64,000 bases of DNA from Austropuccinia psidii (lineage: Eukaryota > Basidiomycota > Pucciniomycetes > Pucciniales > Sphaerophragmiaceae), in the NCBI GenBank assembly GCA_023105745.1, contig JALGQZ010000006.1, positions 65,702,316 to 65,766,315 of the forward strand, in the 5' to 3' direction. The notes beneath the pieces were generated by a model. It did not search any database and had not been told where the DNA came from. It worked only from the letters and a program-made list of their open reading frames with translations. How positions within the stretch are numbered: the first letter of the stretch is position 1; each line of letters starts with the position of its first letter. Below, one piece after another: positions 23,870 to 60,496 of this stretch. A program made the translations under genes and the position numbers.

Positions 23870-24629
23870 TGGTCACAGTTGCTATTCTAAGTGAAGAGGG
23901 CCTGGAACTCAGTAAACTGGGACTCACTGCAGAGGGCTCAAAGGATAAGAAAGGGAAGAACACTTAAGAATGTAATGAGAGTAAGATTTCTGATAAATAC
24001 TGATATAATAAAAGCAGCAACAAGAATAAGAATAAGAAATAGAAGAGCCAGCCACAAACAAGTCCAATTCTTCTGTTTCAACCTTTCAGAAAGAAAGAGG
24101 AGGGTTGATAAGGATATGGCCACCACACCTCCTACTGAACAGGCCAGAGAAATACAAAGCCTAACTTAATACCAATAAATATAATACACAAAAATAGGGG
24201 TAAGAATATTTATAAAATAATAAATCAACTAAATGAATTAACTGGGAAAACATCCCCAAGGGAGAGAAATAGGGGCTTGTATATGTGAGAATCACCAGCC
24301 CTGATCCAAACAGAGAGTTTTCATGAAAGGGATTGATAATTGAATTGAATCTGGCCAATACAGGTCCTGTACAATCCGTACAGGATCTGTACAGGGGGAG
24401 TGGTAGTGTTGAGTTATCATACTGTTTCAGGATGGTGTATCCAAACTGTATTGGGTAATTCAAACCTGCAAAATTGATGACCGGCTGTATTGATTCACCA
24501 GACTGTATTCATGTTTCAGCAAGGAATATTTCTGAAACTGATTGCTGATACACACAGTGGATTTCTGATTTTAGGTGTTTGAGTGGGTGCATGATTGAAT
24601 ACCCTTAACCCTGACTAGTGGTTGTTAAA
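23870..24629 (-). repeat. 3' LTR of element B
   Basis: It matches 43420-44178 in the same orientation over its whole length; on the plus strand both run from GAAGAGGGCCTGG to GACTAGTGGTTGTTA. It is a diverged reverse complement of the element A LTR. Adjacent internal sequence (TATCCCCCTCTTGAAA at about 24631-24646) is the complement of the polypurine tract, confirming this is the 3' LTR of a minus-strand element. The outer end is uncertain by a few bases (TGGTCACAG rather than TGTCACAG). Confidence 0.85.
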
Positions 24630-25466
24630 GTATCCCCCTCTTGAAAATGGTGGGCTCCCGAAAACTATAATACCCTGCCACTGTTGAGTGGCATCACAAA
24701 ATCCCCACATTTTTTCCAAAGGTTTTCTTTGATTTTTCTTTTCATCTTCGCCATTATCCTGAAAATTCTCTACTGTATTCATTGTCTTTGATTATCTGTC
24801 TTCTCCCCTTCTTTGAATCTTTAGTAAGCTCTTCAACCTTTGAATTATACTCTCCTTCTGAACTTCAATCAATAATTCCCTTAAAGACATGACCCTTGGG
24901 TTGTATCCCAAAATAATAATGGTGATATGAACATATATACCCCTTATTGACTGCGCAATTTTTCCTCTTGGGTGCTATTCACCTTGATTGGCTATTGGCA
25001 TCATCCAAAAAGGGGGCTTGCCCCCATTGTCCTTGAAATTTGGCTTAAAAATTGGTTTTTGGCCATTTGGGACCCTCTTGAGTCTTTTCAGTCTTGGCCA
25101 TTACCATGGCAAGTTTTGATGGAATGGTAATTAGGGGCCTTTTTGGCCTTTTTTGGTCTTTTGGGTTTATTGGGTCCTTGGTGTGTCCTATGGTCTGTGG
25201 GGGTTACCGGAGCCCCCCAGGGCTAAAATGAGCCCATATGGCAGAGCTCCTTGGGCCCATGGGACCATGACTTCACCCCTATGGCCTGGGCCCAATGAGA
25301 GGTTCCAGGACCATGGAATCTGACCGCCCCCAATATTACAGGGAAGGTCTTGGGCAATTGATTGGGGCCCAAATTGAGGGCCATCACTGGCTTCTGGGCG
25401 ATCTTCAGGATTGGAGTGCAGTATTCCGACAGACTGAATTCTTCTGCCTGCACAATTTCTTTATCC
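24630..25466. other. Element B spacer between 3' LTR and antisense gene
   Basis: This corresponds to 34530-35595 of element A. It lies 5' of the antisense gene and so should hold its promoter. It contains several GGCC/GGCCTTTTTGGCC-like words, as does A, but only one TGCGCA (near 24952), where A has about 17. The open frame 25223-25492 (minus) is a shadow. Confidence 0.5.
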
Positions 25467-26037
25467 ATGAGTTCCAAACTGACTGAAATCACTGCATCTT
25501 CTCCTTATGCACTGCCACCATCTGTTCTTTGTGGTTCTGGCATCCTCAGTCAGTTGGCTTCACCTTGGTCAATGGCTTCCTCTGGGCACTTTGATCCTGG
25601 ACAAACCTACAATGGCTACAAGGCAGTTGAAGTTCTTGATCCTCCTTGTACTTAATTTTTGGCCAACGGAAAAGATTGCTTTCAGAACTTCAACCCAAAA
25701 TATTCAAAGTTCCACTTCTTCTTTTATGGGAACGAGCAATTTCCTTGTCCTGGGTCAGTGGCTTCCAATCTCAGAAGTCACTTGTGGAGCAAAAAGGATG
25801 AGCCTTTTGGGAAGGATTTCCCAGTTTTTGAGGGCCCAGCTCCTGATGCTACTTCAGGATATTCTTATTGTGAGTCAAATGAATTTCTTTATTGAATTGG
25901 ATACTGATATCTTGAATTGGTGACTGGTTCTAGGCAGAGGGATGTGGAAAGATGGACCAATGTTGGAGGATCCATTCCAGTTGGTGGTAGGTCAATCTAC
26001 TCCAGCTCAGCAGTCCCAATTTTCAGGATCAAGACTG
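25467..26037 (+). pseudogene. Element B antisense zinc-cluster gene, 5' half, cut by element A
   Basis: The frame starting ATG at 25467 matches the N-terminal half of A's 391-residue antisense product. Shared blocks are SSKLT/SSRLT, PPSVLCGSG/PPSVLYGPG, TYNGYKAVEVLDPPCT/TYNGFKSVRVIEPPCT, RSHLWS/ARRLWS, PDATSGYS/SDATSGHS and VTGSRQR/VTGSRMR. A TAA at 25653-25655 sits just after the first cysteine of the zinc cluster, and the other cluster cysteines are mostly lost. A GTGAGT donor at 25870 matches A's intron donor, and stops lie inside the intron slot (25870-25920). The matching acceptor position reads TTGG instead of CAG, so splicing is probably broken. The frame ends at the GACTG duplication where A inserted. 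Confidence 0.8.
26033..26037. repeat. Target-site duplication of element A, left copy
   Basis: GACTG directly precedes the TGTCACAG start of the 5' LTR and recurs at 36357-36361 directly after the 3' LTR end TGTGACA. Five-base duplications are usual for Gypsy integrases. Confidence 0.95.
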
Positions 26038-26798
26038 TGTCACAGCCAAGGAGGCAGGGGCATTACCAATCATATTCCACAATCATTACTTCATTCATAC
26101 CCCTCAAAACCCAATCAGCAAGGGGGTTTCATCCAAGATTCTCCAAATACAGTTTTTCATACAGGAAAGATCCAAATACAGTTTCAAACCTCAATACAGT
26201 CATACAGGCAAGACCCAAATACAGGATTCACCAAATACAGGCCTGTAATCAATACAGGCGCAAATACCTGTATTGACTGTATAACCTGTATTGGATTCAC
26301 CAATACAGGATTCAATCCCACATCCAACTTCTTCCAGCATACAGACAAGTATCTCAACACTCAAACTCCAAGGCTGGTATTTCTCACATATACCAGCCCC
26401 TCTTCACCCACCTGGGGGTTTTTCCCCCAGTTAATTAAAATAGTTGATTTATTATTTAATATTATTTTATTCTCACTTTGGAATATTATTTTATTATTTA
26501 CTAAGTTAGTCTTAGCCTTCCCTCACCTGTTCAGTAGAGTCCTGGTGGCCATATCCTTATTAATCCCTTTTCTCTTTTCTGAACAGGTTGAAACAGTGAC
26601 TCAGGATTATTTGTGGTTGGCTCTTTATTATTGCTTTTGCTTTGTCTCTCTTATCTTTTATATTTATTATTTTATGACTAGGAATTTATCCTCTTACTCC
26701 ATTACTCTCATCATTTGAGTATTTCCTTTTGAGCCCTCCATAAGTAAGTCTGTTCACTGAGTGCCAGGCCCTCTTCACTTAGAAGAGCCCCTGTGACA
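26038..26798 (+). repeat. 5' LTR of element A
   Basis: It is 761 bp, starts TGTCACAGCC and ends CCCCTGTGACA. I count three differences from the 3' LTR: ATTCATA/ATTGATA near 26095, CAGGAAAG/CAGGCAAG near 26165 and CAGACAAG/CAGGCAAG near 26344. The first 250 bp contain about ten copies of AATACAG/CTGTATT-type words in both orientations. The 119- and 258-codon frames that cross the LTR are chance frames. Confidence 0.95.
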
Positions 26799-27570
26799 TT
26801 CTTTTAATTAACTCATAATGGCTTCTTTTCTTTCATTCATTTTATTCATTTCTCTCATTCTTCAATTATGATCTTTTCATGATTTTATGATTTTTATGAC
26901 TTTTTCTCTCTCATCAATTTTCATCTCACTCTTTTCATTCAAATGAAAATTGATTCTATTTCTCATTTCAAAATTTCTGCTGACCATTTCACTTTATCAT
27001 TATCATTCTCATTTCTCTTTTTTGTCTGAATTCAGGTTTATCAGGTTATTTGAGTGGAATTATTTGGGTTAATTGATTATTCATTCAGGGATTTTATTGA
27101 TTTGGGGTATTCAGTGATTTTGGATTTTGAAATTTCTCAAGATATTGATTGATTGATTGATTCGTCAAGACATTGATTTCACCTCAAGATTTTGAATTGA
27201 CTTTGATTGATTTGATTTGATTGACTTGATTTGACTACTCAAGATAACTGATTTATCCTCAAGATTTGATTTAATTGATTGATTTGAATTTGATTCCTCA
27301 AGAAAATTGAATTGACTTTTCAAGATATTGATTGAATTCCTCAAGACTTAATTGATTTGATTTTGATTGACTTGATTTGACTTATTGATTGAAATTGATT
27401 ATTCATAAGAATTTGACTTTGTCATATTCACTCTTCAAGATTTGATCATATTAATTCACTTCAAGATTATTGATTGAGTTCTCAAGTTCATCAAGATTTT
27501 CATTTGATTGTTTTGGTGGAGCCTTCTTTTATTCAAAGTATCATCAAGTTTTATTTATTCTTCTTTTGTA
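26799..27570 (+). other. Leader of element A, TTGATT/CAAGA-rich
   Basis: This 770-bp untranslated leader is low in complexity. From about 27110 it is dominated by TTGATT repeats interleaved with CTCAAGA words. No conventional tRNA primer-binding site follows the LTR (ATTCTTTTAATTAACTC). Element B has the same type of leader at 42712-43419. The function is unknown; a packaging or priming structure is possible. Confidence 0.6.
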
Positions 27571-28929
27571 ATGCCAGTTCAGCATAGCCCTCCAGCCAAG
27601 AATACAAGATCTCAAAGACATCAAGCTGTTCTCACTCCTACAGCAAGGGCTCCTCTTGACCGCACACCATCAGTTCATCAACTGAGTGCAAATTTGGACA
27701 GAGGACCACCAATGGAAGGAGCAGCACCCTCCAGAAGAGGAGGTGTGAAGTCTAGAAGATCAAGATCATTCTCTGGACTGTTGGGTGGCTATCCAAGCAT
27801 TCCTCAAGGGCCTAGAAGTAGATTGGGGGAAGCTGAAGATGAGGAGGGGGAGGAGTCTGTGGAAGAGGAAGAATCTGAGGAGACTGAAGTGGCAGCTTCC
27901 TTGGCAGGTGTTTCTGAAGCTCCTGAGGCTCCAAATCTAGCCCTTTCTAATCAACCTTCTGTCTCTCAAGCTGAACCAAATTTCCTCAAGATGATGGAGC
28001 AAATGACTCAGTTTATGGGACAACTCACTCAAGCAGTTGCCCCAAGAGACACTTCAAAAGTCCCTGCATTCAAGACTCCATCAATGAAGGCACCTGATTC
28101 TTTTGATGGTACTAAAGCTCATAAATTGAGAGGATTCATTCAATCCTGTCAATTAATCTTTCATAATGACCCAGCAAACTTCTTCTCTGACAAGAAGGAG
28201 GTGCTTTATTCAACTTCTTTTCTTACTGGTAGAGCTGGCAAATGGATTGAACCTTACCTCTCAAATATCTCCAATGAAGACCCATCTTATCTCCTCAATA
28301 ACTGGCAGTTATTTGAAACCCAGTTATTCACTCTGTTTGGTGATCCCAATGAAGTCAGAAAAGCTGAACAATAGTTGGACAATTTGAGGATGAGGGAAAG
28401 TGGTCAGGTTTCCTTGTACATAGCGGATTTTAGAAGTTTAATGTCAAGAATTGGAGACTGGGGGGAAAGAGCCTATATTCATGTGTATAGGAGAGGCTTG
28501 GCATCAAGGTTGTTGGACCAATTGGCTTCTCACCCTGGAACTTTTGATAGTCTTCAAGAACTCATGGACATCACCTTGGAATTAGATACCAGGTACCATG
28601 AGAGGCAGAAGGAAAAGGGTAGCCATCAAGAGAAGAAGCCTCCAATCAGTGGATCCAACTCCTCCAAGCCCCCTCAAAGTTCATCATCAAAGAAGCCTTA
28701 TCACAAGAAGAATAAGAAGGGGAAGAATTTTCAAGTGTCCAAAGACAAGCCTCATGCTGCTCTCCTCAATAAGGACAATAAATTAATTGGTTCTGAAAAG
28801 GAGAGGAGGATTAAAGAAGGCTTGTGCAATTATTGTGGTGGTAAACACCCATTTGAAAAATGCTTCAAGAGGCCTGAGAATAGGCAAGGGTCATCAAAAG
28901 GCTTCCCTAGCAAGCAGGGAAAAGCCTGA
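27571..28929 (+). pseudogene. gag: Element A gag, one internal amber codon
   Basis: From ATG 27571 the frame runs 452 codons to TGA 28927-28929, with one TAG at 28372-28374 (codon 268). The N-terminal third is Arg/Pro/Glu-rich and disordered. A Retrotrans_gag-like capsid domain lies at about codons 170-345 (with FDGTKAHKLRGFIQSC and ELFTLFGDPNEV-type blocks), then a Lys/Ser-rich basic stretch. A zinc knuckle lies at 28825-28863 with spacing CX2CX3HX4C, one residue shorter than the usual CX2CX4HX4C. The Gag protein packages element RNA. In-frame ATG 27508 lies upstream, but B lacks it and homology with B starts near 27571. The frame is otherwise intact, so the single TAG is either a recent lesion or suppressed. 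Confidence 0.85.
28917..28923 (+). promoter_or_regulatory. Candidate -1 ribosomal frameshift site between gag and pol
   Basis: G GGA AAA fits the X XXY YYZ slippery consensus in the correct gag phase (codons GGA 28918-28920 and AAA 28921-28923), two codons before the gag stop. Slipping back one base puts the ribosome in the pol frame, which is then open to 29908. Element B has the same -1 relation between gag and pol, but its heptamer reads T GGA AAA. I see no strong downstream hairpin by eye. Confidence 0.5.
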
Positions 28930-31900
28930 GTGGGAATCATGATGTGTTCAATGGTTCTCACTTATTTCCTTCAAGAGCACAATTGTGCACTCTGAATACT
29001 AGTGTCAAGAAATCTTTGAAATTTCTTATTTTTTCTTCAATCTCTGATATTTTTTATAGTATTCTCATTGATTCTGGTGCTACAAACTCCTTTATTGCAA
29101 AGAATTTTGTTCTCAAGTACTCATTGACCATGTCAGAGCTCCCTGAAAAGATTCCTCTTTTCATTCTGGATTCCAGTGAATCCACTTCCTTGTTCATCAC
29201 CCATTATACCAAGTGGGTTGTTGATTTACCTTCCTTCCCAAGCTTTGAATGGTATTTCTTTATCATAGATTCACCCAAGGGAGAAGACCTAATATTGGGC
29301 TATGATTTTCTTTACCATTTTAATCCCATTATTGATTGGAAAAATGGATTGATCACCTATGATTCTAATCATAAGGATTCTAGTGGTATTATTCCTTCTA
29401 CTAGTAATGACTTTTCCACTGCTGTCAACAGTGTTGCTCTGGTTGGTGAACTTAAGACACCTTCCTTTCCTCCTTCTGTCCATAACCCCTCCATTTTTCC
29501 CTCTCAGTCATTACTTCCATTAAGAGATGAAGTCTTCAAAGAGATAAAAGATGTTGGAGAAGATGTTGCTATATCTTCACTTCATCTCTTTCAAGGGGAT
29601 ATGGACCTTCCTCCTTTATCTTTTCATGCCTCCCTGGAGGAGCAGTGGGATGAGGAGGAAGAGCCAGAAGAGATTGAAACTGTGCTGAAGGTAGTCCCTC
29701 CTGTTTATCACAAATATTTGGATGTATTCTCCAAAGTGAAAGCAGAGAAACTTCCCCCACACCGTGCCTGTGATCATCATATCGAACTGGAGGGTCTTCT
29801 ACCTCCAGTTGGTGTTATCTACTCTTTATCAAGAAATGAGTCAGAAACACTGCGGGCCTACATTTCAGAGAATGTAGAGAAAGGTTTCATTAGACCAAGC
29901 TCCTCCTGAACAGGAGCACCTGTCCTTTTTGTTAAGAAAAAGGATGGTGGTCTTTGTTTGTGTGTTGACTACCGCAAACTTAATGCTGTCACTAGGAAGA
30001 ACAGGTATCCTGTTCCTCCAATGAATCAGCTTCTTACCGTATTCAACAGTGCTACTATCTTCTCCAAGATAGATCTGTGTGGTGCTTATAATCTCTTGAG
30101 AATCAAAGAGGGGGATGAGCACTTAACTGCCTTTAGAACCAAATATGGCAGTTATGAATATTTGGTTATGCCATTTGGCTTAACCAATGCTCCAGCTTCA
30201 TTCCAAAATCCTGTGAATGATATCTTTGCAGATTATTTGGATGTTTTTGTTGTAGTGTACTTAGGTGATATTATGGTCTTCTCTAGCTCTTTGGATGAAC
30301 ATGTTAAACATGTGGCCTCTGTTCTCCAAAGACTGAGAGACAATAATTTGTTTGCTAAAGCCTCAAAGTGTGTATTCCATGCCTCAAGTGTGGAATACTT
30401 GGGCTATGTTGTTTCAAGTGATGGCCTCAAGATGGATTCTTCAAAGGTTCAACAAATCCTCAATTGGCCTCAGCCCAAGAACATCAAGGCCCTTCAATCC
30501 TTTCTTGGCTTTGCCAACTTTTATCGTCATTTCATTAAAAATTATTCCAAAAAAATCTCTGCTCTCACTTCCCTCCTTAAAAAAGATTCTCCCTTTATCT
30601 TCAATGAGGAAGCTCTTAGTCAGTTTCAGAGACTCAAAGAAGCTTTCACCACTGCTCCTATCCTCTCTCACTTTAATCCTTCTCTTCCAACTATTGTAGA
30701 GACTGATGCCTCTGATTATGCCTTGGGTGCTGTACTGAGTCAGGTGAATGACTCAGGAAAGCATCCCATTGCATTTGATAGCCGCAAGCTCTTACCAGCT
30801 GAGCTCAACTATGAAATTCATGACAAGGAACTCCTTGGCATAGTTTGGGCTCTCAAGCGCTGGAGAGCCTTTCTCCTTTCTCTTTCTGATTCCTTTGAGG
30901 TCTTGACAGACCATTGTTCTCTCCAATATTTTATGTCCTCTAAAGTCCTTACTCGTCGTCAAGCCCGTTGGGCTGAATTTTTGTCTGAATTTCACTTTGT
31001 TATCACTTACCGCCCAGGCAGGCTGGCCACTTTACCAGATGCCTTGTCACGTCGGGAAGACGTGTACCCAGAGAGGGGGGTGGATTTCATCAGCAAGAAT
31101 CCTCAAAACTTTCATCAAGTTCTCAAGCAAAATGAAATTCAAGAGTCAAGATTCTTTTCCATAAAAGTTGAAATGTTTTCAGATTTAGTTGATCAGATTC
31201 AAAGACAAGTATGGCAAGACAAAGACTATAAGGAGATCCTCAAGAAATTAGAAAGAGGAGAATCAGTCCCAGACTATTCTCTTGAACCTCAAGCAAAATT
31301 ATTATTGTTCAAAGATAGAGTAGTTATTCCAAGCAATCATGAAGTTCAATTGGACATTCTTCAAAGGCGTCATGATTCACCATTGGCTGGCCATCCCGGC
31401 CAGGAGAAGACCCTCAAGCTCATCAAGAGGGATTTTTATTGGGCTGGCATGAATCAAATCATCAAGGACTATGTGTCCTCATGTCAGCAATGTTCAAGAA
31501 ACAAGAACATCCACCATAAGAAGTTTGGATTACTCAAGCCTCTTCAAATTCCATCTGGTCCTTGGAAGTCTTTATCAATGGACTTTATCACCCAATTGCC
31601 CTTGTCAAGCAACTTTGATTCAATTTTAGTAGTTGTAGACAGATTTTCAAAAATGGCAATATTTATTCCAACTTATTCAACAATCACTGCTTTGGATTTA
31701 GCTCAAATATTCATTAATCATGTCTTTTCCAAACATGGTCTTCCAATCAGTATTGTTAGTGATAGAGGTTCATTATTTGTTTCATCATTTTGGACTCAAT
31801 TGTGTCAGCAGCTCAAGATATCAAGAGATCTTTCAACTGCCTTTCACCCTGAAACAGATGGACAGACAGAGAGGGTAAATCAGATTCTAGAACAGTATCT

Positions 31901-32645
31901 TCGGATGTATGTCAGTTACCATCAAGATGACTGGCACACCTGGCTCCCTCTGGCTGAATTTGCCTATAATAATGCAGAACATTCATCAACAAAGCAGTCT
32001 CCATTTTTCACTATTTATGGAAGAAATACCAGCTTTGATTCAATTCACAATTCTCAAGATACACCTGCTGGAAAGTTATCATCAAAAGTCCAATCAGTAC
32101 AGCAAGTTGTCAAGGAAGAATTAGAGTCAGCAATAAAGCGTTTTAAGAAGTATGCAGATAAAAATAGAGCAATTCCACCTGATTTCCAACCTGGGGACAA
32201 AGTATGGCTAGCTTCCAAGAACATCAAGACAACAAGACCCACCAAGAAACTTTCAGAAAGATGGTTGGGACCCTTTGAAGTTCTCAAGAAGATTGGCAGC
32301 CATGCATATCACCTCAAGTTGCCTCAACAATGGAAGTCAGTTCACCCTGTTTTCCATGTGTCCTTGTTAGAACCAGTAAAGCAATCAACTATCCCAAATC
32401 AACACCAATTGCCACCACCTCCAGTAATAGTGGAAGAGCAAGAAGAATGGGAAGTGGCTCAGGTTCTGGACTCAAAACTCAAGAGAGGTTCATTATGGTA
32501 TTTAGTGGAGTGGAAAGGATTCAATGAAGACCCAGAAAGAACAACTTGGGAACCAGCTTCCAACCTTACCAACTCCCCAGACCTTGTCAAGGATTTTCAC
32601 ACTTTGTATCCAGACAAGCCTGGCCCAAATGCCTCAAGAGTTTGA
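28924..32645 (+). pseudogene. pol: Element A pol: protease, RT, RNase H, integrase, chromodomain
   Basis: The frame lies -1 relative to gag and is open from the overlap to 32645 except for TGA 29908-29910, where B has TCA. Domains in order: aspartic protease with Asp-Ser-Gly-Ala at 29070-29081; RT about 29930-30470; RNase H about 30690-31060 with TDASDYALGAVLS; integrase with an H2C2 zinc domain about 31360-31500; a DDE core with SMDFITQL, SDRGSLF and HPETDGQTERVNQ; a GPF module near 32265; and a C-terminal chromodomain about 32435-32625 (WYLVEWKGFNEDPERTTWEP). The chromodomain should direct integration to modified chromatin. The RT motif reads YLGD at 30258-30269 (YLDD or CLDD in relatives), which removes a catalytic Asp. 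There is no ATG at the start, consistent with expression by frameshifting. Confidence 0.9.
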
Positions 32646-33300
32646 TTTATGGTGCTTGGTGGGGATTGGAGTTTATGAAAGTAAGTTCCTCTCCTGGCAT
32701 GCACCTTTAAGGGGGTATTCTACCCAAATTTGTTGTAAGCATCACCTTGGCCACTTTGTGAGCACTTGTCAATTCTTTGGACAGGTTCAGAAGGCCTTGC
32801 AACATCATACCCTCAAGATTTGGACCTTTTCATCAAGATATGGCCCAATCTTTTCTTTTATTTTCTCTTCTTTCTTTAATCATGCCATAAATCATCTTTC
32901 AAGACATTCATTATCAAATTAATCTTATGGCATATTTCAATTTTCATTTATGGTGCTTGGTGGGGAGTGGAAGTTATGAAAGTAAGTTCCATCTCCTGGT
33001 ATGCATCCCTGAGGGGTCTAATTCTTGTAATAACATTACCTTGGCCACGCTGTGAGCATCAAATGCTTGCTTTCATCTTTCAGAATCTTTTGGCCAAAAA
33101 TCAAGCAACTCACCACAAGAAGGACAACCCTCAGGCATTTCTTATTTCTTTCTTTACTCTCTTTTTCTCTCAATTCTCTTTCATTTTTATTTTTTATTTT
33201 TTATTTTATTTTCTTTTACTTGTATGATTTATTTTTCATTTCTTGTTTCAAAAGCAGCAATCATAACTCCCATATCTTGTTTGGGGAGTGAATTTATTTA
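32646..33300 (+). repeat. Tandemly duplicated block after pol
   Basis: Two related units of about 290 bp start at about 32649 and 32950. Both begin with TTTATGGTGCTTGGTGGGGA, continue with a GAAAGTAAGTTCC segment and CTTGGCCAC, and end T-rich. Element B has the same pair on the minus strand (starting near 37625 and 37322). The block lies between the 3' ends of two convergent genes, pol and the antisense gene, so it may hold transcript ends. The open frames 32524-32922 and 32967-33227 run through it without known motifs. Confidence 0.6.
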
Positions 33301-33353
33301 ATAATCAAGAGCAAACACTAGTAATGGTAAAGACCAGCTACAGATAATCCTCA

Positions 33354-34529
33354 TCAAAATTTCTTCAAGGCTTCTCTAAACTTAACAACCATCGCATCTT
33401 CATAAGCAACTGCCTCCCTGGCCAAAGCAGCAGTGGGCTCCCCTGGAATAGCACTCTTCATGGCCTTATCAACAAACACCTCAGTTAAAGCATCAACTTC
33501 AGCAAATAGAGAGGTGACCACCTTCTTGTTCACCCTTTTTTGATCAGTGAAGTTGCCAGTAATATTCCAGCGGCGACGGGTTTCAAAGATTGATTCAGGT
33601 TCTGGAGACATTGGGTCTCTAGAAGTGCTGGCCACTGGTGGTTGGATATTGGTAGAGGTGGAGGCAAGTGTGGAGGCCCTGGTTGGGGATCTAATTGGAA
33701 GTTGAGGTGGTTGGGGGGACCTGATCACTTCATTATTGGTGGTACTGGCTTGGACTGGGGATTGTGAGGTGGATTGGATTCTTCTTTTCTGGATTGGGGT
33801 AGTCATTTCAAGCTCTTCTCCATCAATCTCATCACTTCCTTCAGCATCAGTATCATTTTCATCTTGAACCACCAAATTTCTCTTCAATTTTCCAAGTCTT
33901 CCATCTTTTCTGGTGACCAAAATGGGAACCTCTGGGGCCACTCCAATGGGATTTCCTTGGGGGTGAATTGATCCTCCAATGGCTGCCCAGGAACCACTGG
34001 TATTATTCCATTGTTGGACACCCCTCATTCTAGATCCAGTCACTGAAGAAGAATAAAAAGAAAACACAGAAGTCAGTAACCCATCAATTTTATGGCCAAT
34101 CAACTCACAATTGGAGTGACCAGAGGTGGCATCAGAGGTGGGAGGTTCATCAACAGGAGCTTCCAATCCAAATCTTCCACCCTTCTTGATGCTGCTCCAT
34201 AATCTTCTGGCATCTTCAGGAAAGCTATAGTGGGCTTGGGAACAATTTCTTTTTCCAAGATTGCAAAACTGACACCTGGTGGACCTAGCAGTAGCAGATT
34301 CCACACAAGGAATCCCTTTCCTCTTACAATTGGTGCAGGGTGGTTCAATAACTCTGACAGATTTAAAACCATTATAGGTTTTATTGATGTCCCAAATCTC
34401 TGTAGGGGCCATACTCTCTTCAGAAATCTCCCTCAAGTTATCAAAAACACCAGGACCATAAAGTACAGAGGGTGGGGAATCAGAGTGATTGGAATCACAG
34501 AGGGAAGTCAGCCTTGAACTCATCTTCAA
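33354..34529 (-). CDS. Antisense gene in element A: Zn(II)2Cys6-type protein
   Basis: An uninterrupted frame of 391 codons lies antisense to the element, between pol and the 3' LTR. Residues 65-96 carry Cys-X2-Cys-X6-Cys-X10-Cys-X2-Cys-X6-Cys (C65, C68, C75, C86, C89, C96), which fits the fungal Zn2Cys6 binuclear cluster, with basic residues between the second and third Cys (KRKGIP). An acidic/serine-rich stretch at about 225-245 (DENDTDAEGSDEIDGEE) follows, then a Ser/Thr/Pro/Gln-rich linker, and a C-terminal segment of about 60 residues predicted helical by eye (ALTEVFVDKAMKSAIPG region). Zn2Cys6 proteins usually bind DNA as transcription factors; here that role is inference. A 66-bp in-frame intron is likely (34108-34043), giving about 369 residues when spliced. 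Element B carries a homologue. The start at 34529 has a second Met two codons on. Confidence 0.8.
   Translation of the reverse strand: MKMSSRLTSLCDSNHSDSPPSVLYGPGVFDNLREISEESMAPTEIWDINKTYNGFKSVRVIEPPCTNCKRKGIPCVESATARSTRCQFCNLGKRNCSQAHYSFPEDARRLWSSIKKGGRFGLEAPVDEPPTSDATSGHSNCELIGHKIDGLLTSVFSFYSSSVTGSRMRGVQQWNNTSGSWAAIGGSIHPQGNPIGVAPEVPILVTRKDGRLGKLKRNLVVQDENDTDAEGSDEIDGEELEMTTPIQKRRIQSTSQSPVQASTTNNEVIRSPQPPQLPIRSPTRASTLASTSTNIQPPVASTSRDPMSPEPESIFETRRRWNITGNFTDQKRVNKKVVTSLFAEVDALTEVFVDKAMKSAIPGEPTAALAREAVAYEDAMVVKFREALKKF
34043..34108 (-). other. Predicted intron in the antisense gene
   Basis: The donor GTGAGT (34108-34103) and a pyrimidine-rich acceptor TTCTTCTTCAG (ending 34043) define 66 bp. 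The length is a multiple of three, so the frame is open with or without splicing. In element B the same donor is kept at 25870 while the slot contains in-frame stops, supporting a non-coding role. An intron transcribed antisense to the element cannot be spliced from the genomic RNA of the element, so it can persist through retrotransposition. Confidence 0.65.
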
Positions 34530-35582
34530 GTCAAAATTTCAAATTCAAGACCAAGAGATTTATGGACAATTGCAAGTCAGCAAGGCATTTATGGCAATTG
34601 ACCAGTCAAGAAGGGGATAAGAGAAAAGAAATTCAAGAAGAAATCAAGATCAAGAAGAAAAACTGCTTCAAATGACCCAATTGACCAATTTCATGATTTT
34701 ATGCACTTTGGCGCAAATGGCCACATCAGACCTCAAAGCTTCAAAATTGCTCTATTTTATCATTTTTCATCAAAATATGCTTAATTATGCATATTGGCAA
34801 TTTTGTGCATTTTGCGCAATTTTGTGCATTTTGTGCATTTGCGCACTTTTGCGCATTTTTGCGCAAAAGGCCCTTTTTTCTTGTCAAAAGGCTTCAAAAG
34901 GCCTTTTTGGCCAATTTCATCATAATTGCGCATTTGCGCAAATTTTGCGCATTTGCGCACTTTTGCGCAAATTCTGCGCATTTGCGCACTTTGCGCATTT
35001 TGCGCAAAAATGTGCAAAATGGCCAAAACACCTTATAAGGCCATTTTTTCAGCATTTATCATTTTTTTTCAGTTTCCCACCAATATATGCCATTTTGGCA
35101 TATATGCGCATTTGCGCACTTTGCGCATTTTTGCGCAAATTGGCCAAAATCCCCTCTAATCACAAAATCAAGGAGTTTGGCCAGGACTTCTGAAATGGTC
35201 CAAAACCTCAAGTGTTGGCCACTTTATGCCAACACCCTCAAGATGAAAATTATGATGAAATCCGGTGTTCTTGGGACATAAACCCAGATCACCCACTTTT
35301 CAAAAAGCCATGAGGACTCAAGAAAAGTTTGGTGAAGACACTCAAGACAAGAATGAAGACATTTTAAGAAGAGTGAAAGAATTTTGAAGTGAAAGAGGGA
35401 ATTCAGAATCAAGATCAAGGGGAAAATACCTACAGGTGATCAAATGAGGATTTTTGTTGAGTATTGGTTGAAGAAGAAATTTTAATGAATAAATTTAAGG
35501 AATTGGGGAAGAAGAACTGTATGGATTTTTGCAAGCTCATCAAGACTCACTGTACTTATGGTGCTCAGAGCTCACCACTTTC
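34530..35582. other. Spacer between antisense gene and 3' LTR of element A
   Basis: It lies upstream of the antisense gene and so should contain its promoter. It holds the TGCGCA array (34813-35140). The rest is A-rich with several CAAGA words. The overlapping open frames at 34672-35193 and 34781-35026 are translations of the low-complexity array in several frames. Confidence 0.5.
34813..35140. repeat. Array of about 17 TGCGCA palindromes
   Basis: About 17 copies of the self-complementary hexamer TGCGCA, mostly spaced 7-13 bp by T/A-rich linkers (TTTGCGCATTTGCGCAC style), occur here in three sub-clusters (34813-34865, 34927-35007, 35104-35140), with several TGTGCA variants. Each contains a CpG, in otherwise CpG-poor surroundings. 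It lies about 280-610 bp upstream of the antisense start codon. Element B has a single TGCGCA in the corresponding spacer. Confidence 0.8.
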
Positions 35583-35583
35583 A

Positions 35584-35595
35584 AGAGGGGGATAA
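35584..35595 (+). other. Polypurine tract of element A
   Basis: AGAGGGGGATAA lies directly before the 3' LTR start TGTCACAG, as expected for the plus-strand primer. Related tracts lie next to the 3' LTR of element B (complement at 24631) and at 45556-45565 before the LTR of element E. Confidence 0.75.
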
Positions 35596-36356
35596 TGTCA
35601 CAGCCAAGGAGGCAGGGGCATTACCAATCATATTCCACAATCATTACTTCATTGATACCCCTCAAAACCCAATCAGCAAGGGGGTTTCATCCAAGATTCT
35701 CCAAATACAGTTTTTCATACAGGCAAGATCCAAATACAGTTTCAAACCTCAATACAGTCATACAGGCAAGACCCAAATACAGGATTCACCAAATACAGGC
35801 CTGTAATCAATACAGGCGCAAATACCTGTATTGACTGTATAACCTGTATTGGATTCACCAATACAGGATTCAATCCCACATCCAACTTCTTCCAGCATAC
35901 AGGCAAGTATCTCAACACTCAAACTCCAAGGCTGGTATTTCTCACATATACCAGCCCCTCTTCACCCACCTGGGGGTTTTTCCCCCAGTTAATTAAAATA
36001 GTTGATTTATTATTTAATATTATTTTATTCTCACTTTGGAATATTATTTTATTATTTACTAAGTTAGTCTTAGCCTTCCCTCACCTGTTCAGTAGAGTCC
36101 TGGTGGCCATATCCTTATTAATCCCTTTTCTCTTTTCTGAACAGGTTGAAACAGTGACTCAGGATTATTTGTGGTTGGCTCTTTATTATTGCTTTTGCTT
36201 TGTCTCTCTTATCTTTTATATTTATTATTTTATGACTAGGAATTTATCCTCTTACTCCATTACTCTCATCATTTGAGTATTTCCTTTTGAGCCCTCCATA
36301 AGTAAGTCTGTTCACTGAGTGCCAGGCCCTCTTCACTTAGAAGAGCCCCTGTGACA
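35596..36356 (+). repeat. 3' LTR of element A
   Basis: A 761-bp copy of 26038-26798 with about three single-base differences. It is followed directly by the GACTG duplication and the second half of the element B antisense gene. Confidence 0.95.
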
Positions 36357-36361
36357 GACTG
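36357..36361. repeat. Target-site duplication of element A, right copy
   Basis: GACTG follows the 3' LTR end and matches 26033-26037. Confidence 0.95.
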
Positions 36362-36987
36362 AAGGAGTAGTGAAAAGAATAAGAAAAATTGCTGATTTAC
36401 CTCCTGATCCAGATTCTGAAGGTAGTAGTGAATTGTATGGTGAAGAGGTTGAGGTGGTTAATAATCCAGTTGGCCATAAATACAGAGCTTCTCCTTCTCA
36501 GCCTCCTGCCAAAAGATTCCAAAGCTGCCTTATTCCCAGTACCCCTAGAAATTTTCAGCCAATTCTTGCTACCATTCCTACTTCCCTTCCTCATTCTTCA
36601 CCAAGCTCTTCCCACACCAGGCCTGCCATAAATCTAGAACTAATACCATCACCCATTCAACAGTCCAGAGCCTCACCCATAGCCACCTCTCAACAACTTC
36701 AACCTGAGGCCAGCTCCAGTAGAAGAAGAGAAGAGCTTTCACCTTTATCCTTTCCTGCCGCCCAAGTATTTCAGCAAAGGGATCATTGTCCTATCCAAGT
36801 TACCAAAGAAGATCCAAATAGGGCAAGTGAAAGTCAAGATGCTGTGGCCAGGTTGTTTAGAAAAGTTGATAGGATTATTATGAAGGGAATTATGTATGCT
36901 AATGATAGAACTATTCCTGGTACTGCTTCTGAAGAGACAGCTGCAAAATTTGCCTGGTATGAAGATGAATTTATAAATGATTTCTAA
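36362..36987 (+). pseudogene. Element B antisense zinc-cluster gene, 3' half
   Basis: About 205 codons remain open from the insertion site to TAA at 36985-36987. Alignment with the C-terminal half of A's antisense product is recognisable: a KRIRK/KLKRN basic run, DPDSEGSSELYGEE against DTDAEGSDEIDGEE, a Ser/Pro/Thr-rich linker, then ARLFRKVDRIIMKG against TSLFAEVDALTEVF, with TIPGTASEETAAKFA against AIPGEPTAALAREA. Absence of stops in this half contrasts with the many lesions in B's gag and pol. It joins directly to 25467-26037 if A and one GACTG are ignored. The promoter and zinc cluster are now 10 kb away, so it cannot make the full protein. Confidence 0.8.
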
Positions 36988-37620
36988 ATAAATTTGGATC
37001 ATATGGGTAGAGATAACTAGTTTCCTTGTCCTTGTTTGTGTTTGGTTTGACTTCTATCCCCACTTTTATAACTACTCAAAAATAAATTGAACCTCCCAAT
37101 ACATCATATGGGAGGGGATGCTGCTGCTTTAAAGATAAAGAGATAAAATAAAATATACAAGTAAAGAAAAGGAAAGAAAATGAGCGGGAAAGAGAGTGTA
37201 GAAAATAAATAAAGAAAGTCAGAGTGGCTGAGGTAATTTTTTACAAGAAGTAGACCCCTCAGGGATGCATACCAGGAGAGGGATCTTACTTTCCCAGCTC
37301 CCACTCCCCAACAAGCACCATAAAAGGATAACTTTGCCATAATTGATTTTAAATTAAGGAATGTATTTAATAATTATTATTGGCATGAGTTGGAAAAGAA
37401 TGAAATAAAGAAAAGAAAAAGGAATTTGGCCATATCTTGAAGAAAAGTTCAAATTTCAGGGTATTGATGTTGCAAGGCCTTCTGAATCTGTCCAAAGAAT
37501 CAACAAGTTCTCACAAAGTGGCCAAGGTTATTCTTACAACAACATTTGGGTAGAATACCCCCTTCAAGGTGCAAACCATGAGAGGAACTTACTTTTATAA
37601 AACTCTAGTCAACACCAAGC
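36988..37620 (-). repeat. Duplicated block after pol in element B
   Basis: This is the counterpart of 32646-33300. On the minus strand a unit starts near 37625 (TGATGCTTGGTGTTGACTAG) and another near 37322 (TGGTGCTTGTTGGGGAGTGG), each followed by the GTAAGT/GTAAGA-type segment. The frame 37340-37104 is not conserved in A and is treated as chance. Confidence 0.55.
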
Positions 37621-40600
37621 ATCATAAAATCAAACTCTTGAGGTAATTGGGCCAGGCTTGTCTGGATACAATTAATGGAAATCCTTGACAAGGTCTGGTG
37701 AGTTTTTAAGGTTGGAAGCTGGTTTGCAAGTTGTTCTTTCTGGGTCTTCCCTGAAGCCTTTCCATTCCACAAGATACCATAATTTGCTTTTTTTGAGTTT
37801 TGAGTCCAGAACCTGAGCTACTTTCTATTATTGTTGATCTTCCACTATGACTGGGGGTGGTGGAAATTGATGTCAATTTGGGATAGTTGATTTCTTCACT
37901 GGTTCTAATAAGGAAAAATGAAAGACAGAGTGAACTGACTTCCATTGTTGAGGCAAATTGATGTGATCTGCATGGCTTCCAATCTTCTCAAGAACTTCAA
38001 AGGGTCCCAGCCATATTTCTGACAGTTTCTTGGGGGGTATTGTAGTCTTTATTTTCTTGGAAGCTAGCCATACCTTATTCCCTGGCTGGAAACAGGTGGA
38101 ATTGAAATATTTCTATCTGCATACTTCTTTGATCTCCTTACTTCTGACTCTAATTCTTCTTTGACAACTTGCTGTACTGATTGGAGTTTTGTTGATAAAT
38201 TTCCAGCAGGTGAGTCTTGAGAAATAGGGATTGAGTCAAGACTGGGATTTCTTCCATACAAGGTGAAAAACGTTGATTGCTTTTTTGATGAGTGTTGTGA
38301 ATTATTATAGGCAAATTAAGCCAGAGGGAGCCAAGTGTACCAGTCATCTTGATGGTAACTGACATACATCCGAAGATACTTTTCTAGAATCTTATTTACT
38401 CCCTCTGTATGTCCATCTGTTTCAGGATGAAAAGAAGTTGAAAGATCTCTTGATATCTTGAGCTGCTGACACAATTGAGTCCAAAATGATGAAACAGATA
38501 AAGATCCCCTATCACTAATAATACTGGCTGGAAGACCATGTTGGAAAAGACATGGTTGATAAAGATTTGAGCTAATTCCAGGGAAGTAATTAGTCCATAA
38601 GCTGGAATGAAGCTTGCAATTTTTGAGAACCTGTCCACAACTACTAAAGTTGAATCAAAGTTGTTTGACAAGGGCAATTGAGTGATAAAGTCCATTTATT
38701 AAGAATTCCAAGGACCAGATGGAATTTGAAGAATTTTATTTTTTCTTGAACATTGCTGACATGAAGAAACATAGTCCTTAATGAATTGATTCATGCCAGC
38801 CCAATGAAAATCCCTCTTAATGAGCTTGAGGGTCTTCTCCTGGCCAGGGTGGCCAGCCAATGGTGAGTCATGACGCCTTTGAAGAATATTCAGTTGGATT
38901 TCTTCATTGCTTGGGACTACCACTCTATCTTTGAATAACAATAATTTGGCTTGAGGTTCAAGAGAATAATCTGAAATTGATTCACCTCTTGCTGATTTCT
39001 TGAGTATTTATTTGTAGTCTTTTTCATGCTTTACTTATTTTTGGATCTGATAAACTAAATCTGAGAAAATTCCAACTTTTATTGAGAAGATTCTTGACTC
39101 TTGGGTTCCATCTTGCTTGATTACTTGATGAAAATTTTGAGAATTCTCACTGATGAAGTCCACCCCTCTTTCTGGGTACACATTGTCCCGACGTGACAAG
39201 GCATCTGGTAAAGTGGCCAGCCTGCCGGGGCGGTAAGTAATAGTGAAATGAAACTCAGAAAGAAATTCAGCCCAATGGGCCTGACAACAAGTTAGAATTT
39301 TGGAAGACATGAAATACTGAAGGTAAGAGTTGTCTGTCAAGACTTCAAAAGGATTGGAAAGAGAAAGAAGGAAAGCTCTCCAGGGCTTGAGAGCCCAAAC
39401 TATGCCAAGGAGTTCCTTGTCATGAACTTTATTTTTGAGTTCAGCAAGGAGACACTTGCAACTATCAAATGCAATGGGACGCTTTCCTGAGTAATTCACC
39501 TGACTCAGTAGAGCACCCAAGGCATAATCAGAAGCAGCAGTCTCAACAATAGCTGGTAGAGAAGTATTGAAATGAGAAAGGATAGGAGCAGTGGTGAATG
39601 TTTCTTTGGGTATTTTAAAATGACTAAGACCTTCTTCATTTAAGAAAAAGGTGAGTCTTTTTTGATAAGGGAGGTGAGAGAAGTGATTTTTTAGAGTAAT
39701 TTTTAATGAAAAAACAATAGAAGTTGGAAACGCCAAGGAAGCATTGAAGAGCTTTGATGTTCTTGGGCTGAGGCCGATTGAGGATTTGCTGAAATTTTGA
39801 AGAATCAACTTTGAGGTCATCACTTGAAACAACATAGCCCAAGTATGCCACACTTGAGGCATGGAATACATGCTTGGAGGCTTTGGCAAACAAATTATTG
39901 TCCCTCAGTCTTTGGAGGACAGAGGCCACATGTTTGACATGTTCCTCCTCAGAGCTGGAAAAGACCATAATATCATCTAAACAAACTACAAAAACAATAT
40001 CCAAGAAATCTGAAAAGATATCATTCATAAGATTCTGGAAAGAAGCAGGAGCATTAGTAAGGCCAAATGGCATAACCAAATACTCATAACTACCATATTT
40101 GGTTCTAAATTCAGTTGAGTGCTCATCCCCCTCTTTTATTCTCAGGGGATTATATGCACCACAAAGATCTATCTTGGAGAGGATAGTGGCACCCTTTAAT
40201 ACATTAAGAAGCTGATTCATAGGAGGAACAGGATACCTGTTCCTCCTAGTGACAGAATTGAGTTTGCGTTAGTCAACACACAAACAAATACCTCCATCCT
40301 TTTTCTTGACAAAAAGGACAGGTGTTCCTGTTGAAGAGGAGCTTGGCCTGATGAAATATTTCTCTAAATTATCTGGAATGTAGGTTGACAGTGTTTGTTA
40401 CTCTTGATTTTATAGTGAGTAGGTAGCACCGACTGGAGGTAGAAGACCCTCCAGTTCAGTATGATGATCAAAGGCGTGGTGTGGAGGAAGTTTCTCTGCT
40501 TTCACCTTGGAGAGTACAGCCAAATATTTGTGATAGTCAGGAGGGACTACCTTCAAAACAGTTTCAATTTCTTCTTGCCCTTCCTCCTCATCCCACTTCT

Positions 40601-41299
40601 CTTCCAGGGAGGCATGAAAAGATAAAGGAGGAGGGTCCATATCCCCTTGAAAGAGATGAAGTTGAGATATAGCAACATCTTCTCAAACATCCTTTATCTC
40701 TTTGAATACCTCATCTTTTGACTTAAGTAATGACTGAGATGGCATTATGGAGGGGATATGGATAGAAGAAGGAAGGGGAGGTGTTTTAATTTCACCAACC
40801 AGAGCAACACTGTTGACAGCAGTGGCCATAGCATTTTCCTAGCAGGAGATTTAATACCACTAGAATACATATGACTATAATCATAGGTGATCAGTCCATT
40901 TTTTGAATCAATAAAAGGATTAAAATGGTAGAGGAAATCATAGCCCAATATCAGGTCTTCTCCTTTGGGTGAATATATGATAAAAAAGTCCCATTCAAAG
41001 CTTGGGAAGGAAGGCAAGTCAACTACCCACTTGGTATAATGGGTGATGAACAAGGGAGGGGATTCATTTGAACCCAGAATGAAAAGGGGAGTCTTTTCAG
41101 GGAGCTCTGACATAGTCAATGAGTACTTGAGAACAAAATCAATGGCAATAAAAGAGTTTGTAGCACCAGAATCAATGAGAATACTATAAAAAATATCAGA
41201 GACAGAAGAAAAAATAAGAAACTTCAAAGAATTCTTGACACTAGAATTCAGAGTGCACAATTGTGCTGTTGAAGGAAATAAGTGAGAACCGTTGAACAC
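37621..41299 (-). pseudogene. Element B pol pseudogene
   Basis: All pol domains match element A, in at least eight separate open pieces: protease (41299-40745, Asp-Ser-Gly-Ala kept), linker (40640-40410), RT (40220-39636, CLDD active site kept), RNase H (39889-39035, TAASDYALG with the first Asp lost), integrase zinc domain (38941-38699), integrase core (38695-38150) and a frameshifted chromodomain (about 37945-37640). Stops, frameshifts and small deletions separate the pieces, and about 100 bp of the zinc-domain-to-core linker has been lost. It serves as an outgroup for reading A: where A has TGA at 29908, B has a Ser codon, and where A has YLGD, B has CLDD. Confidence 0.85.
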
Positions 41300-41313
41300 A
41301 TCATGATCCCCAC

Positions 41314-42711
41314 TCAGGCTTTTCCATGCTTGCTAGGGAAGCCTCTTGATGACCCAGGCTTGTTCTGAAGTCTCTTGAAGCATTTTTCAATAGGGTGCTT
41401 TCCACCACAATAAGTACACAACCCCTCTTTGATCCTCCTCTCCTTTTCAGAACCAATGAATTTATTTTCCTTATTAAGCAGAGCAGAATGGGGCTTGTCC
41501 TTTGAAACTTGAAATTGCTTTCCCTTCATATTCTTCTTATTGTGAGGCACTTTTGAAGGTGAGTCTTGAGGAGGCCTTGAAGAATGGGATCCAGTTACAG
41601 GGGGCTTATTTTCTTAATGACTACCCTTCTCTTACTGTCTCTCATGGTACTGGTCTCTAAGTCCAGATTAATGTCCACGAGTTCTTGAAGAGTATTCAAA
41701 TTACCAGGGTAGGAAGCCAACTGATCCAAAAGTCTTGATTCCAATCCTCCTCTATAGACATGAATATAAGCCCTTTTTCCTGAATATCCAATTCTTGAAA
41801 TTGAACTTCTAAAATCAGAAATGTACAAGGATACATGACCACTTCCCTTAAGCCTCAAATTGTCCTACTCCTGTTCAGCTTTTCTAACTTCATTGGGATC
41901 ACCAAACAGAGTGAATAATTGGGCTTCAAATAACTTCCAATTATTGAGGAAGTAGGAAGGATCTCCATTGGAATTATTTGAAAGTTTAGGTTCAATCCAT
42001 TTGCCAGCTCTACCAGTGAGAAAAGAAGTTGAGTACAGAACTTTCTTCCTGTCAGAGAAGGATTTTTCTGGATCAGTATGGAGAATCAATTGACAGGATT
42101 GGATAAATCCTCTCAATTTATGGGCTTTAGTACCATCAAGAGGATAAGGTGCTTTCATTGATGGAGTCTTGAATGCAGGGTCTTTGGAATTGTCCATGAG
42201 GGCAGCTGCTTGAGAGCGTTGTCCCATAATAGTAGCCATTTGCGCCATGATCTTGAGAAGACTTAGATCAGATTGAGAGACAAGAGATTGATTAGTAGGG
42301 GCTAGATTAGAACCCTGGGGAATCTTCCAAAACATCTGCCACTTCAGTTTTCCCAGAGTCTCCCTCTTCCACAGACTCCTCCCCCTCTTCATCTTCAACT
42401 TCTCCTGGTCTTGCTCTTGCACCTGCAGACATGCCAGGGTGGCCACCCAAAGGTCCAGAGAAAGATCTTGATCTTCTTGATTTCATTCCCCCTCTTCTGG
42501 AGGGTTCTGCTCTTTCTATGGGTGGTCCTCTTTCCAAATTTGCACTCAGTTGATGAACTGATGGGGTGTGGTCAAGAGGAGCCCTTGCTGTAGGAGTGAG
42601 AACAGCTGGTTTGCTTTGAGATCTAGTATTTGTGGCCGGAGGGCTGTGATGAACTGGAATGATTGGGAAATTAAGAAAAATATTGATGTTACTTGAGAAT
42701 AGGGAATCCAA
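41314..42711 (-). pseudogene. Element B gag pseudogene
   Basis: It matches element A gag from the Pro-rich N-terminus (SPPATNTRSQ) through the capsid domain to the knuckle CTYCGGKHPIEKC, again CX2CX3HX4C. A frameshift lies near 42320, a TAG at 41859-41861 one codon after the position of A's TAG, and another frame change between 41595 and 41550. The start codon aligned to A's 27571 is lost (Ile). Gag ends GKA-stop in the same place as A. Confidence 0.8.
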
Positions 42712-43419
42712 GCTTGGCCAAATCAGTAATCAATAAAATCTTGATGATCTGGAAGAATCAATCAACAGTCTTGAGGTGAAATCAAATTGAATCAATACAT
42801 CAATCAATTCAGCCAATAACAAAAATAAATCAAATATAAATAAATGTTAAAGAATTAGACAATCAATCAATCAATCAATAATTCAACATGAATAATCAAT
42901 CAAATATCAATCAATAAGTCAATTTCTTAAATATAAAAGGAAGTCTTGAGGATCAAATCCATCAAATAAGTATCTTCAGGATTCAATTCAATATCTTTAT
43001 GATTCAAAGTCAATCAATAATCAAAATCAATTCTTGAAGATCAATAAGTTATCTTGAGGATCCAAAATCAGTCAATCAATCCACTCCAAACAAAAATCCT
43101 GAATTTCTGAATCAATAACCCAATGAATCCCAACTAATCACTTAACCAATCAATAAAATTCCTGATAAGACCTGAATAAGCAAACAAAAGAGAAATTTGA
43201 TTTGAGATAGAATTGAGAATGAAATGAGATGGTAAGAAATGATTAAGAAATGAAAAGAATAAATTTTTATATGCATATAATGAATGAGATGAAAATTGCT
43301 GAGAGAAAAATTCATAATCATAATAATCATAAAATCATAAAGAGGTCATAATTGTGGAATAAGAGAAATGAAGTTAAATGAATGAAAAGAAAGAATCAAA
43401 TATGACTTAATTAATTTAA
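42712..43419 (-). other. Leader of element B, AATCAA-rich
   Basis: On the minus strand this is the same TTGATT/CAAGA-rich low-complexity leader as 26799-27570 of element A. It has no coding potential. Confidence 0.6.
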
Positions 43420-44178: not shown

Positions 44179-44497
44179 GCTTCAATTTTAACACCAATTC
44201 CATGCATTTCAGAATTTTCCTCTGTATTTTTGATGGGAGGTGAAAATTAATGTTTATGCTCAGCAATTTGTTGGAGCCTGAATAACTTGGATATTCTTGG
44301 TGGTATGTTTATAGGAGTTTTATATTTAGAAAGACGTTAATCTCCTCCTTTGTGAAATAAAATTCATGAGATTTTCTTCCTCAGTTAAATATTTGATTGT
44401 ATTTTTCTCTATTATTGGTTTATGGCATTTTGGCTTTCATTCTTATGCTCTGGTATTGATTCACAGGTTGACATACCCTTCTGCTAAAAAAGGCTCA

Positions 44498-55688: not shown

Positions 55689-55847
55689 CCCAGGTCAGCT
55701 AAACTCACAACCAGGATTGACCTGTTTTAGATTAGCTTTGTAATAGATAAATTGTAATTGAATTTTGCAAAGTTATTTATTAATTTAATAATCATGACTT
55801 CCTATCCTACTACTGCCTGGATACCACAGTCTGAATACCAATAGTAA

Positions 55848-56201: not shown

Positions 56202-56308
56202 TCTTTCTTTTTAGCCGCAATTAAAAAATATTCATCAAACGCAATTCAATTTAGGTGATATTAATAAATCAGTAATCATTTGGTTTTATTTCATTTTCTG
56301 CTGCAAGC

Positions 56309-60490: not shown

Positions 60491-60496
60491 CCATTG

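Follow-up and report, generated by a model that had tools for sequence, protein, structure and literature searches.

An antisense gene with a zinc-cluster-like cysteine motif in a Gypsy chromovirus of the rust fungus Austropuccinia psidii

The gene brtn of the Boty-like Gypsy elements in Botrytis cinerea is said to go back to Zhao et al., 2011. A fungal Gypsy element with this additional antisense gene, located between pol and the 3′ long terminal repeat (LTR), is described in PMC7264820; the gene is also covered by passages of PMC8365987 and PMC5987419, and in an excerpt of PMC4227169 the Boty-like elements carry a chromodomain. Antisense genes at the same place are described, in passages of PMC7264820, for Grande, RIRE2, Retand and PvRetro13 of plants as well as for Boty of Botrytis and Sclerotinia; according to the citations given there, Gypsy antisense genes have been on record since 1997, without a known function. 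For Grande, the same passages describe GENE23 as nuclear and trace its transcription to an antisense promoter that lies upstream of gene23, and for Retand an excerpt of PMC11963269 reports an antisense TRP28 (PF04195) protein, a predicted DNA-binder, in 97% of clusters; about half of the elements also have tandem repeats in that region. A protein binding motif arrays in its own transposon, VANC21, is described in part of PMC5735166. Here we analysed a gene found at the place just described in a stretch of 64,000 nucleotides of the rust Austropuccinia psidii (contig JALGQZ010000006.1, positions 65,702,316 to 65,766,315; G000:C6:65702316-65766315 in our numbering), hereafter called the window. 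The gene lies between pol and the 3′ LTR of a Ty3/Gypsy chromovirus, element A, on the strand opposite to gag-pol, and it encodes a protein with a zinc-cluster-like arrangement of six Cys residues.

Place, spread and selection of the antisense gene

An earlier note on this DNA had described an intact antisense frame of 391 codons between pol and the 3′ LTR. The frame is indeed open, antisense and so placed; the 391 codons and stop of 33354-34529 begin with Leu, however, the first ATG is at 34523, and a 66-nucleotide intron is probably contained in the frame. The A. psidii genome (1,015,390,075 bases in 84 contigs) was searched with the antisense protein of element A, and 117 matched stretches were obtained; as 106 of 8621 candidates were scored, this copy number is a lower bound and the true number is larger. 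Thirty-eight copies were read, namely the 30 best matches, element A among these, and eight weaker or rearranged ones. All of them were found via the gene, so all 38 carry it by choice of sample and are unable to show its absence. The order pol C-terminus (+), gene (−) and LTR (+) was observed in 36 of the 38, and in the remaining two (L065 and L068) pol and the gene are present with no LTR match within the stretch examined. Among these 38 copies, distances in the gene co-varied with those in the C-terminal part of pol, with a Mantel r of 0.81 that none of 999 permutations reached, which makes independent capture of the gene in every copy unlikely. Two database searches returned 139 and 897 similar proteins at E-values up to 0.001; the homologues were all 'hypothetical proteins' of A. 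psidii MF-1 among the best 120 of the 139 and the best 120 of the 897, and no host source gene outside transposons was found among these listed matches. Many A. psidii 'hypothetical proteins' appear, from their sequences, to be genes of this retrotransposon.

Selection was assessed between groups of copies, of which G1 (L001-L018) is young and G2 (eight copies) and further groups are older. The ratio of nonsynonymous to synonymous divergence (dN/dS) was calculated as net Nei-Gojobori divergence in the exons between groups, with a codon bootstrap on a 9-copy subset. L019 and L025 were omitted from the pol alignment (split matches), and L019, L021, L026 and L027 were assigned to neither G1 nor G2 in the pol alignment and in the G1-G2 dN/dS. 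Between G1 and G2, dN was 0.036 and dS 0.257, giving a ratio of 0.14 (bootstrap 0.08-0.23 on the subset). The other five frames of the same alignment gave 1.42, 1.17, 1.46, 1.64 and, for the mirror frame that uses the same third positions, 0.22; in every one of 26 copies, the mirror frame is interrupted by 10 or more stops. When G1 and G2 were each paired with a third group, which is older, the net ratios were 0.17 and 0.21 (8 of the 18 G1 copies used; L061, L062, L065 and L066 excluded from G4), and the C-part of pol gave 0.10, so that conservation of the gene is comparable to that of pol. Codons fixed in G1 and in G2 but differing between them showed 8 nonsynonymous and 19 synonymous changes, again with 8 of the 18 G1 copies. 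Similarity of the protein was the basis on which copies were selected; this lowers dN by an uncertain amount and counts against this result, but such a choice would not easily produce the contrast between frames seen between the groups. Judged from its codons, the gene is subject to purifying selection that acts on the protein. The suggestion that it is standing cargo of the element was thus well founded, given its fixed place and orientation in 36 of the 38 gene-found copies and this selection, and the gene is very probably a standing, selected part of this element clade.

A probable intron in the antisense direction

The stretch from 34108 down to 34043 starts with GTGAGT, contains CTGAC and a pyrimidine stretch, ends with CAG and is stop-free in element A; it is on the antisense strand alone that these splice signals can be read. 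Over 30 copies, the donor was GTGAGT in 27, with GTAAGT, GTGAGC and GTGGGT once each; the acceptor CAG was matched by script in 28 and seen also in L023, while L028 has CAC, and no match to CTRAY was obtained for L012, L018 and L020. When G1 and G2 were compared (L018 being excluded from G1 here), 50% of residues differed inside this stretch, a level that not one of 329 exon windows reached, versus 15% in the exons. Indels of one nucleotide occur inside it, and both inner stops of L019 fall within it; the end stop of that copy is changed as well. Among 129 database gene models counted with loose patterns, 47 had both flanks, of which 23 were spliced, 5 retained the stretch and 19 were missed by the patterns. 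Positions 34043-34108 are therefore likely to be an intron spliced from an antisense messenger RNA (mRNA), and the protein after its removal would probably have 367 residues.

Two observations speak against splicing: the length is a multiple of three in most copies read, so that retention also gives a protein, and some database gene models retain the intron. Introns of 65 nucleotides were considered as proof of splicing and failed as such; the copies concerned carry compensating deletions that restore the unspliced frame downstream, of 14 nucleotides in exon 1 (L021, L026), 14 in exon 2 (L027) or 20 in exon 2 (L061, L062), and a single-frame protein search ranks copies with a restored unspliced frame higher. 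An intron cannot be spliced from RNA of the opposite strand. Because the intron runs antisense, the sense genomic RNA would be unable to lose it by splicing, and retrotransposition would keep it. The conserved antisense intron makes antisense expression recognisable in stranded RNA sequencing.

Cysteine motif, palindrome array and possible function

The Cys spacing 2-6-10-2-6 noted earlier was confirmed at residues 65, 68, 75, 86, 89 and 96 of the frame of element A, and the codons of these residues are kept in 28, 30, 30, 29, 30 and 28 out of 30 copies, respectively. The description 'Zn(II)2Cys6-type', which had been drawn from the spacing, found no support as worded, and several results stand against it. 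No Pfam match was obtained for A's antisense protein at E-values up to 1; matches of Zn_clus (PF00172) to 18 of 47 relatives were sub-threshold (best E-value 0.028), and the four relatives scanned with scores reached 10.3-13.7 bits versus a cut-off of 21. A profile search of solved structures gave no match at E-values up to 10, and the AlphaFold model was poor (mean predicted local distance difference test score 51, with some of the worst values in the cluster region), with modest support for a C-terminal helix only. All six Cys are intact in one of the eight weaker or rearranged copies. In GAL4, the fourth residue past the second Cys is a DNA-contacting Lys; a Gly occupies this position in the antisense protein. 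Other Pfam domains typical of Zn(II)2Cys6 factors were not found in A's protein or the 47 relatives, and a few relatives bear the name 'Zn(2)-C6 fungal-type domain' in UniRef. As a label, Zn(II)2Cys6 is thus suggestive only.

In the old copies L019, L020, L022-L025 and L028-L030, G-to-T and C-to-A made up a large share of the private changes (54 of 177 in the gene and 43 of 121 in the pol C-part), so that these are not confined to the C-to-T changes to be expected when methyl-cytosine is lost. Losses of Cys to Phe in old copies were considered as something special and fit this general excess.

Between the antisense gene and the 3′ LTR lies an array of TGCGCA palindromes, with 17 sites in 325 bases; the window has 20 sites versus 1.55 expected in 64 kb, and no shuffle gave more than 5. 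In L001-L018, the 1.5 kb upstream of the gene contain 11-29 sites per copy, and no site was found within the gene or on its pol side in any of the 38 copies. The number of sites varies between copies, and the arrays occupy an internal region in one family and what is apparently an LTR in a sister family. A link between array and gene is weakened by several counts: the remaining 20 copies have 0-9 sites upstream of the gene, except L061 with 19; the gene-less sister L069 has 26 sites (L069 1006-2650) in the stretch aligning as its 3′ LTR; another sister, L070, has none, and element B, the older relative into which A is inserted, has one. Since a gene-less sister is rich in sites and old gene-bearing copies are poor in them, the array, as far as such counts tell, is fast-changing and not tied to the gene. 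An element-encoded protein or a host factor may be its binder.

The best explanation, for which we hold a little less than even confidence, is that one chromovirus-type Gypsy clade has, as a standing accessory gene, a gene whose product is a nuclear DNA-binding self-regulator. Taken alone, the proposal that the protein regulates its own element by binding DNA is tentative; analogues speak for it, namely the predicted DNA-binders of Retand, the nuclear GENE23 and the motif binding of VANC21. Transcription of the gene would start in the region before the 3′ LTR and give a separate antisense mRNA, which would then be spliced, and the protein would enter the nucleus and bind DNA via its zinc-cluster-like N-terminal part. 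There it would act in trans on the control region of the element (TGCGCA array and LTR), either tuning transcription or relieving host silencing, and through such trans action defective copies could spread. A slim chance is given to a VANC-like, sequence-specific form of anti-silencing or autoregulation, in which the zinc-cluster protein of the spliced antisense gene would bind the TGCGCA array next to the promoter of that gene and the LTR and, acting in trans, the same array in gene-less sisters.

The protein might also be a non-regulatory accessory factor of the retrotransposition cycle, engaged in nuclear import, integration or RNA handling, with the six Cys forming a structural or nucleic-acid zinc knuckle. 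The Zn_clus similarity below the curated cut-off and the replacement of the GAL4 contact Lys favour such a factor, and nuclear entry of the pre-integration complex is suggested as a possible role of such genes in a passage of PMC7264820. This reading leaves the TGCGCA array beside the gene unexplained, although binding to the array is itself only putative, and we consider it somewhat unlikely.

Clearly unlikely is a passenger gene, captured once in the clade of A and B and of little or no use, whose low dN/dS would partly have been inherited from its source or brought about by the choice of copies. Such a passenger would be consistent with the sister families that lack the gene. A PF00385 chromodomain search was carried out (150 of 17155 candidates scored), and 30 loci were cut with about 1.45 kb past pol; their pol C-parts are 66-80% identical to that of A. 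The antisense gene was found in none of the 30 at E-values up to 1e-3 with A's protein and its relatives, the two pieces of B's gene and the second zinc-cluster family (see below) as queries, and a universal chromovirus gene was rejected on this result. In the sisters L069, L070 and L071, positions 32448 to about 33220 of A align to the pol end and spacer (L069 1-765, L070 1-763, L071 1-744), alignment resumes 181-190 bases on with the start of A's 3′ LTR (35536-35609 in L069; 35559-35606 in L070 and L071), and no counterpart of most of A 33219-35535 was present between the aligned blocks. As spacer and LTR start align without the intervening block, the gene and its upstream block are a presence/absence difference between sister families, and the gene is, by these alignments, specific to this element family or clade. 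Farther along, L071 runs into another, inverted element.

Signs of decay likewise favour the passenger and weigh against a selected gene. L061 and L062 share the 20-nucleotide exon deletion, which breaks the spliced frame; a split-match pattern was seen in 10 genome copies, and the two that were read (again L061 and L062) both carry this deletion. Broken-frame copies thus seem, from their sequences, to have multiplied. Inside older groups dN/dS was 0.61 and 0.84, as expected for decay after insertion. The net ratios of 0.14-0.21 between subfamilies, similar to the 0.10 of pol, count against a passenger, as does the divergent form carried by element B, which was not chosen via the gene. The earlier note had looked to dN/dS near 1, random stops and copies lacking the gene as signs against its proposal: between subfamilies the ratio is not near 1, while at least one stop is present in 11 of the 30 best genome matches and sister families without the gene do exist.

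A still slimmer chance is left to the antisense transcript itself, rather than the protein, as the functional product, pairing with sense RNA to tune or silence the element. Given where the gene lies and how it is directed, its transcript would form double-stranded RNA with the 3′ portion of the genomic RNA, and the idea has been raised for plant elements in a passage of PMC7264820. Selection acts on codons, however, the Cys codons are kept, and the intron interior is free to change while the splice signals stay; silencing by antisense RNA alone, one of the roles first proposed, does not explain selection at the protein level. A chance frame or annotation artefact, which has the lack of named homologues and nothing else in its favour, has practically no prospect in view of the 117 genome stretches, the 139 and 897 database proteins, the conserved Cys codons and the frame-specific selection.

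For work on the antisense genes of Gypsy elements, the preferred reading of a standing accessory gene offers a handle in the form of about 100 scored copies, young and old, gene-less sisters, codon-level selection and a candidate target array. It would also bear on how a rust genome of just over 1 Gb, with more than 90% transposable elements according to a passage of PMC8063080, was filled.

Nested elements, neighbouring genes and described relatives

Element A has the LTRs, the order of reverse transcriptase, RNase H and integrase, and the chromodomain of a Ty3/Gypsy chromovirus, and its LTRs are 99.6% identical over 761 columns (Table 1). It sits within the antisense gene of element B, flanked by a 5-bp duplication, GACTG, at 26033-26037 and 36357-36361. 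The LTR pair of B is 92% identical and its body is 82% identical to A. That B has a homologue of the gene in the same place and orientation, as the earlier note had it, was borne out; this homologue is broken by stops and by the insertion of A, and it is 27-37% identical to A's protein. In the N part, residue 65 is where a first stop falls, and two further stops follow downstream. Alignment with A shows Cys at 65 and 75 unchanged and Phe at 68, 86 and 89, while 96 is Phe, or Cys if a 2-residue gap is placed. The pol C-parts of A and B share 86% DNA identity, yet their antisense proteins have diverged to the extent just given; judging from these identities, the 3′ module may have been exchanged between the A and B lineages, or two old lineages of it may exist. 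The LTRs of A and B match at 73-74% over no more than about 440-450 columns. Just past the right end of the window, at L072:6095-6830 (−), lies a further LTR of the A type (91%), next to a spacer block.

Table 1. Features of the antisense gene and of the nested elements A and B, in window coordinates
Feature	Position	Strand	Basis or remark
Antisense gene, open frame stop to stop, 394 codons	33354..34538	-	First ATG at 34523; net dN/dS 0.14
Putative exon 1 of antisense gene	34109..34523	-	Splice signals
Candidate 66-nucleotide intron, GTGAGT...CTGAC...CAG	34043..34108	-	Splice signals, divergence, indels
Putative exon 2 of antisense gene, with stop	33354..34042	-	Splice signals
Zinc-cluster-like six-Cys motif, spacing 2-6-10-2-6	34242..34337	-	Cys spacing, codon conservation
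Array of 17 TGCGCA palindromes, between antisense gene and 3′ LTR	34813..35137	.	17 of the 20 sites in the window
Element A, Ty3/Gypsy chromovirus, inserted in B	26038..36356	+	LTR pair, domains, GACTG duplication
5′ LTR of A	26038..26798	+	LTR pair alignment
gag of A, two frames	27508..28929	+	PF16297 above cut-off; PF19259, PF03732 below theirs
Protease of A	28911..29909	+	PF08284, E-value 2.4e-9
Reverse transcriptase, RNase H, integrase, chromodomain of A	29910..32645	+	PF00078, PF17917, PF17921, PF00665, PF00385
3′ LTR of A	35596..36356	+	LTR pair alignment
Element B, older relative, A nested inside	23873..44179	-	LTRs 43422-44179 and 23873-24630
N part of B's antisense gene, broken, interrupted by A	25461..26037	+ (antisense to B)	37% to A's protein, E-value 7.8e-25
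C part of B's antisense gene, past A	36357..36987	+	27% to A's protein, E-value 7.9e-5; open frame

A second, different zinc-cluster-like gene, starting MSCTLCTKRGIPC, was found at window positions 59740-60060 (−) and belongs to a high-copy A. psidii family, with 65 database proteins and, in the genome, 150 scored of 3906 candidates. In its neighbourhood (window 55083-63882 and L072:4755-5798), a Tet-like 2OG-Fe(II) oxygenase (57185-57640, E-value 2.8e-22), an SNF2 domain (63385-63882, E-value 1.7e-24) and Transposase_21 (E-value 1.3e-14) were detected. This region is perhaps a TET-carrying DNA transposon as reported in rusts, going by the part of PMC12730594 available.

The rust gene was compared with five kinds of described systems. 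With the Zn(II)2Cys6 factors (PF00172), the antisense protein shares the Cys spacing 2-6-10-2-6 in its N-terminal part; it differs in falling below the Pfam cut-off and in having another residue at the GAL4 DNA-contact position. VANDAL elements are Mutator-like DNA transposons, hence of another type than element A; what is alike in the excerpt on VANC is that the transposon encodes a protein and has, in its noncoding DNA, a closely packed and rapidly changing array of a short motif. Binding was demonstrated there, whereas here the array is seen to lie beside the gene. Place and direction are shared with Grande gene23, RIRE2 and PvRetro13, for which presence in most copies is described; their hosts are plants, and a zinc-cluster-like motif is not reported for them in the passages of PMC7264820. 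Retand, as excerpted, is similar in the place of the antisense gene, in the repeats of the region and in predicted DNA binding, and it differs as a plant element of a non-chromovirus lineage with TRP28 rather than a six-Cys motif; the Pfam searches of A's protein and the 47 relatives did not yield TRP28 (PF04195).

The closest precedent, from the passages available, is brtn of Botrytis, which likewise is an antisense gene at the same place in a fungal chromodomain Gypsy element. It differs in its ascomycete host, and the likeness drawn here is one of place and direction. The earlier note had named plant Gypsy elements as bearers of extra antisense genes; the Boty elements of Botrytis carry one as well (PMC7264820, as excerpted). 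No description of a zinc-cluster-like domain or of a conserved antisense intron in the antisense gene of an LTR element was found in the open-licence literature searched. Antisense extra genes at this place are already known, and what would be new in the A. psidii element, by that search, is the zinc-cluster-like motif together with the conserved, probable antisense intron.
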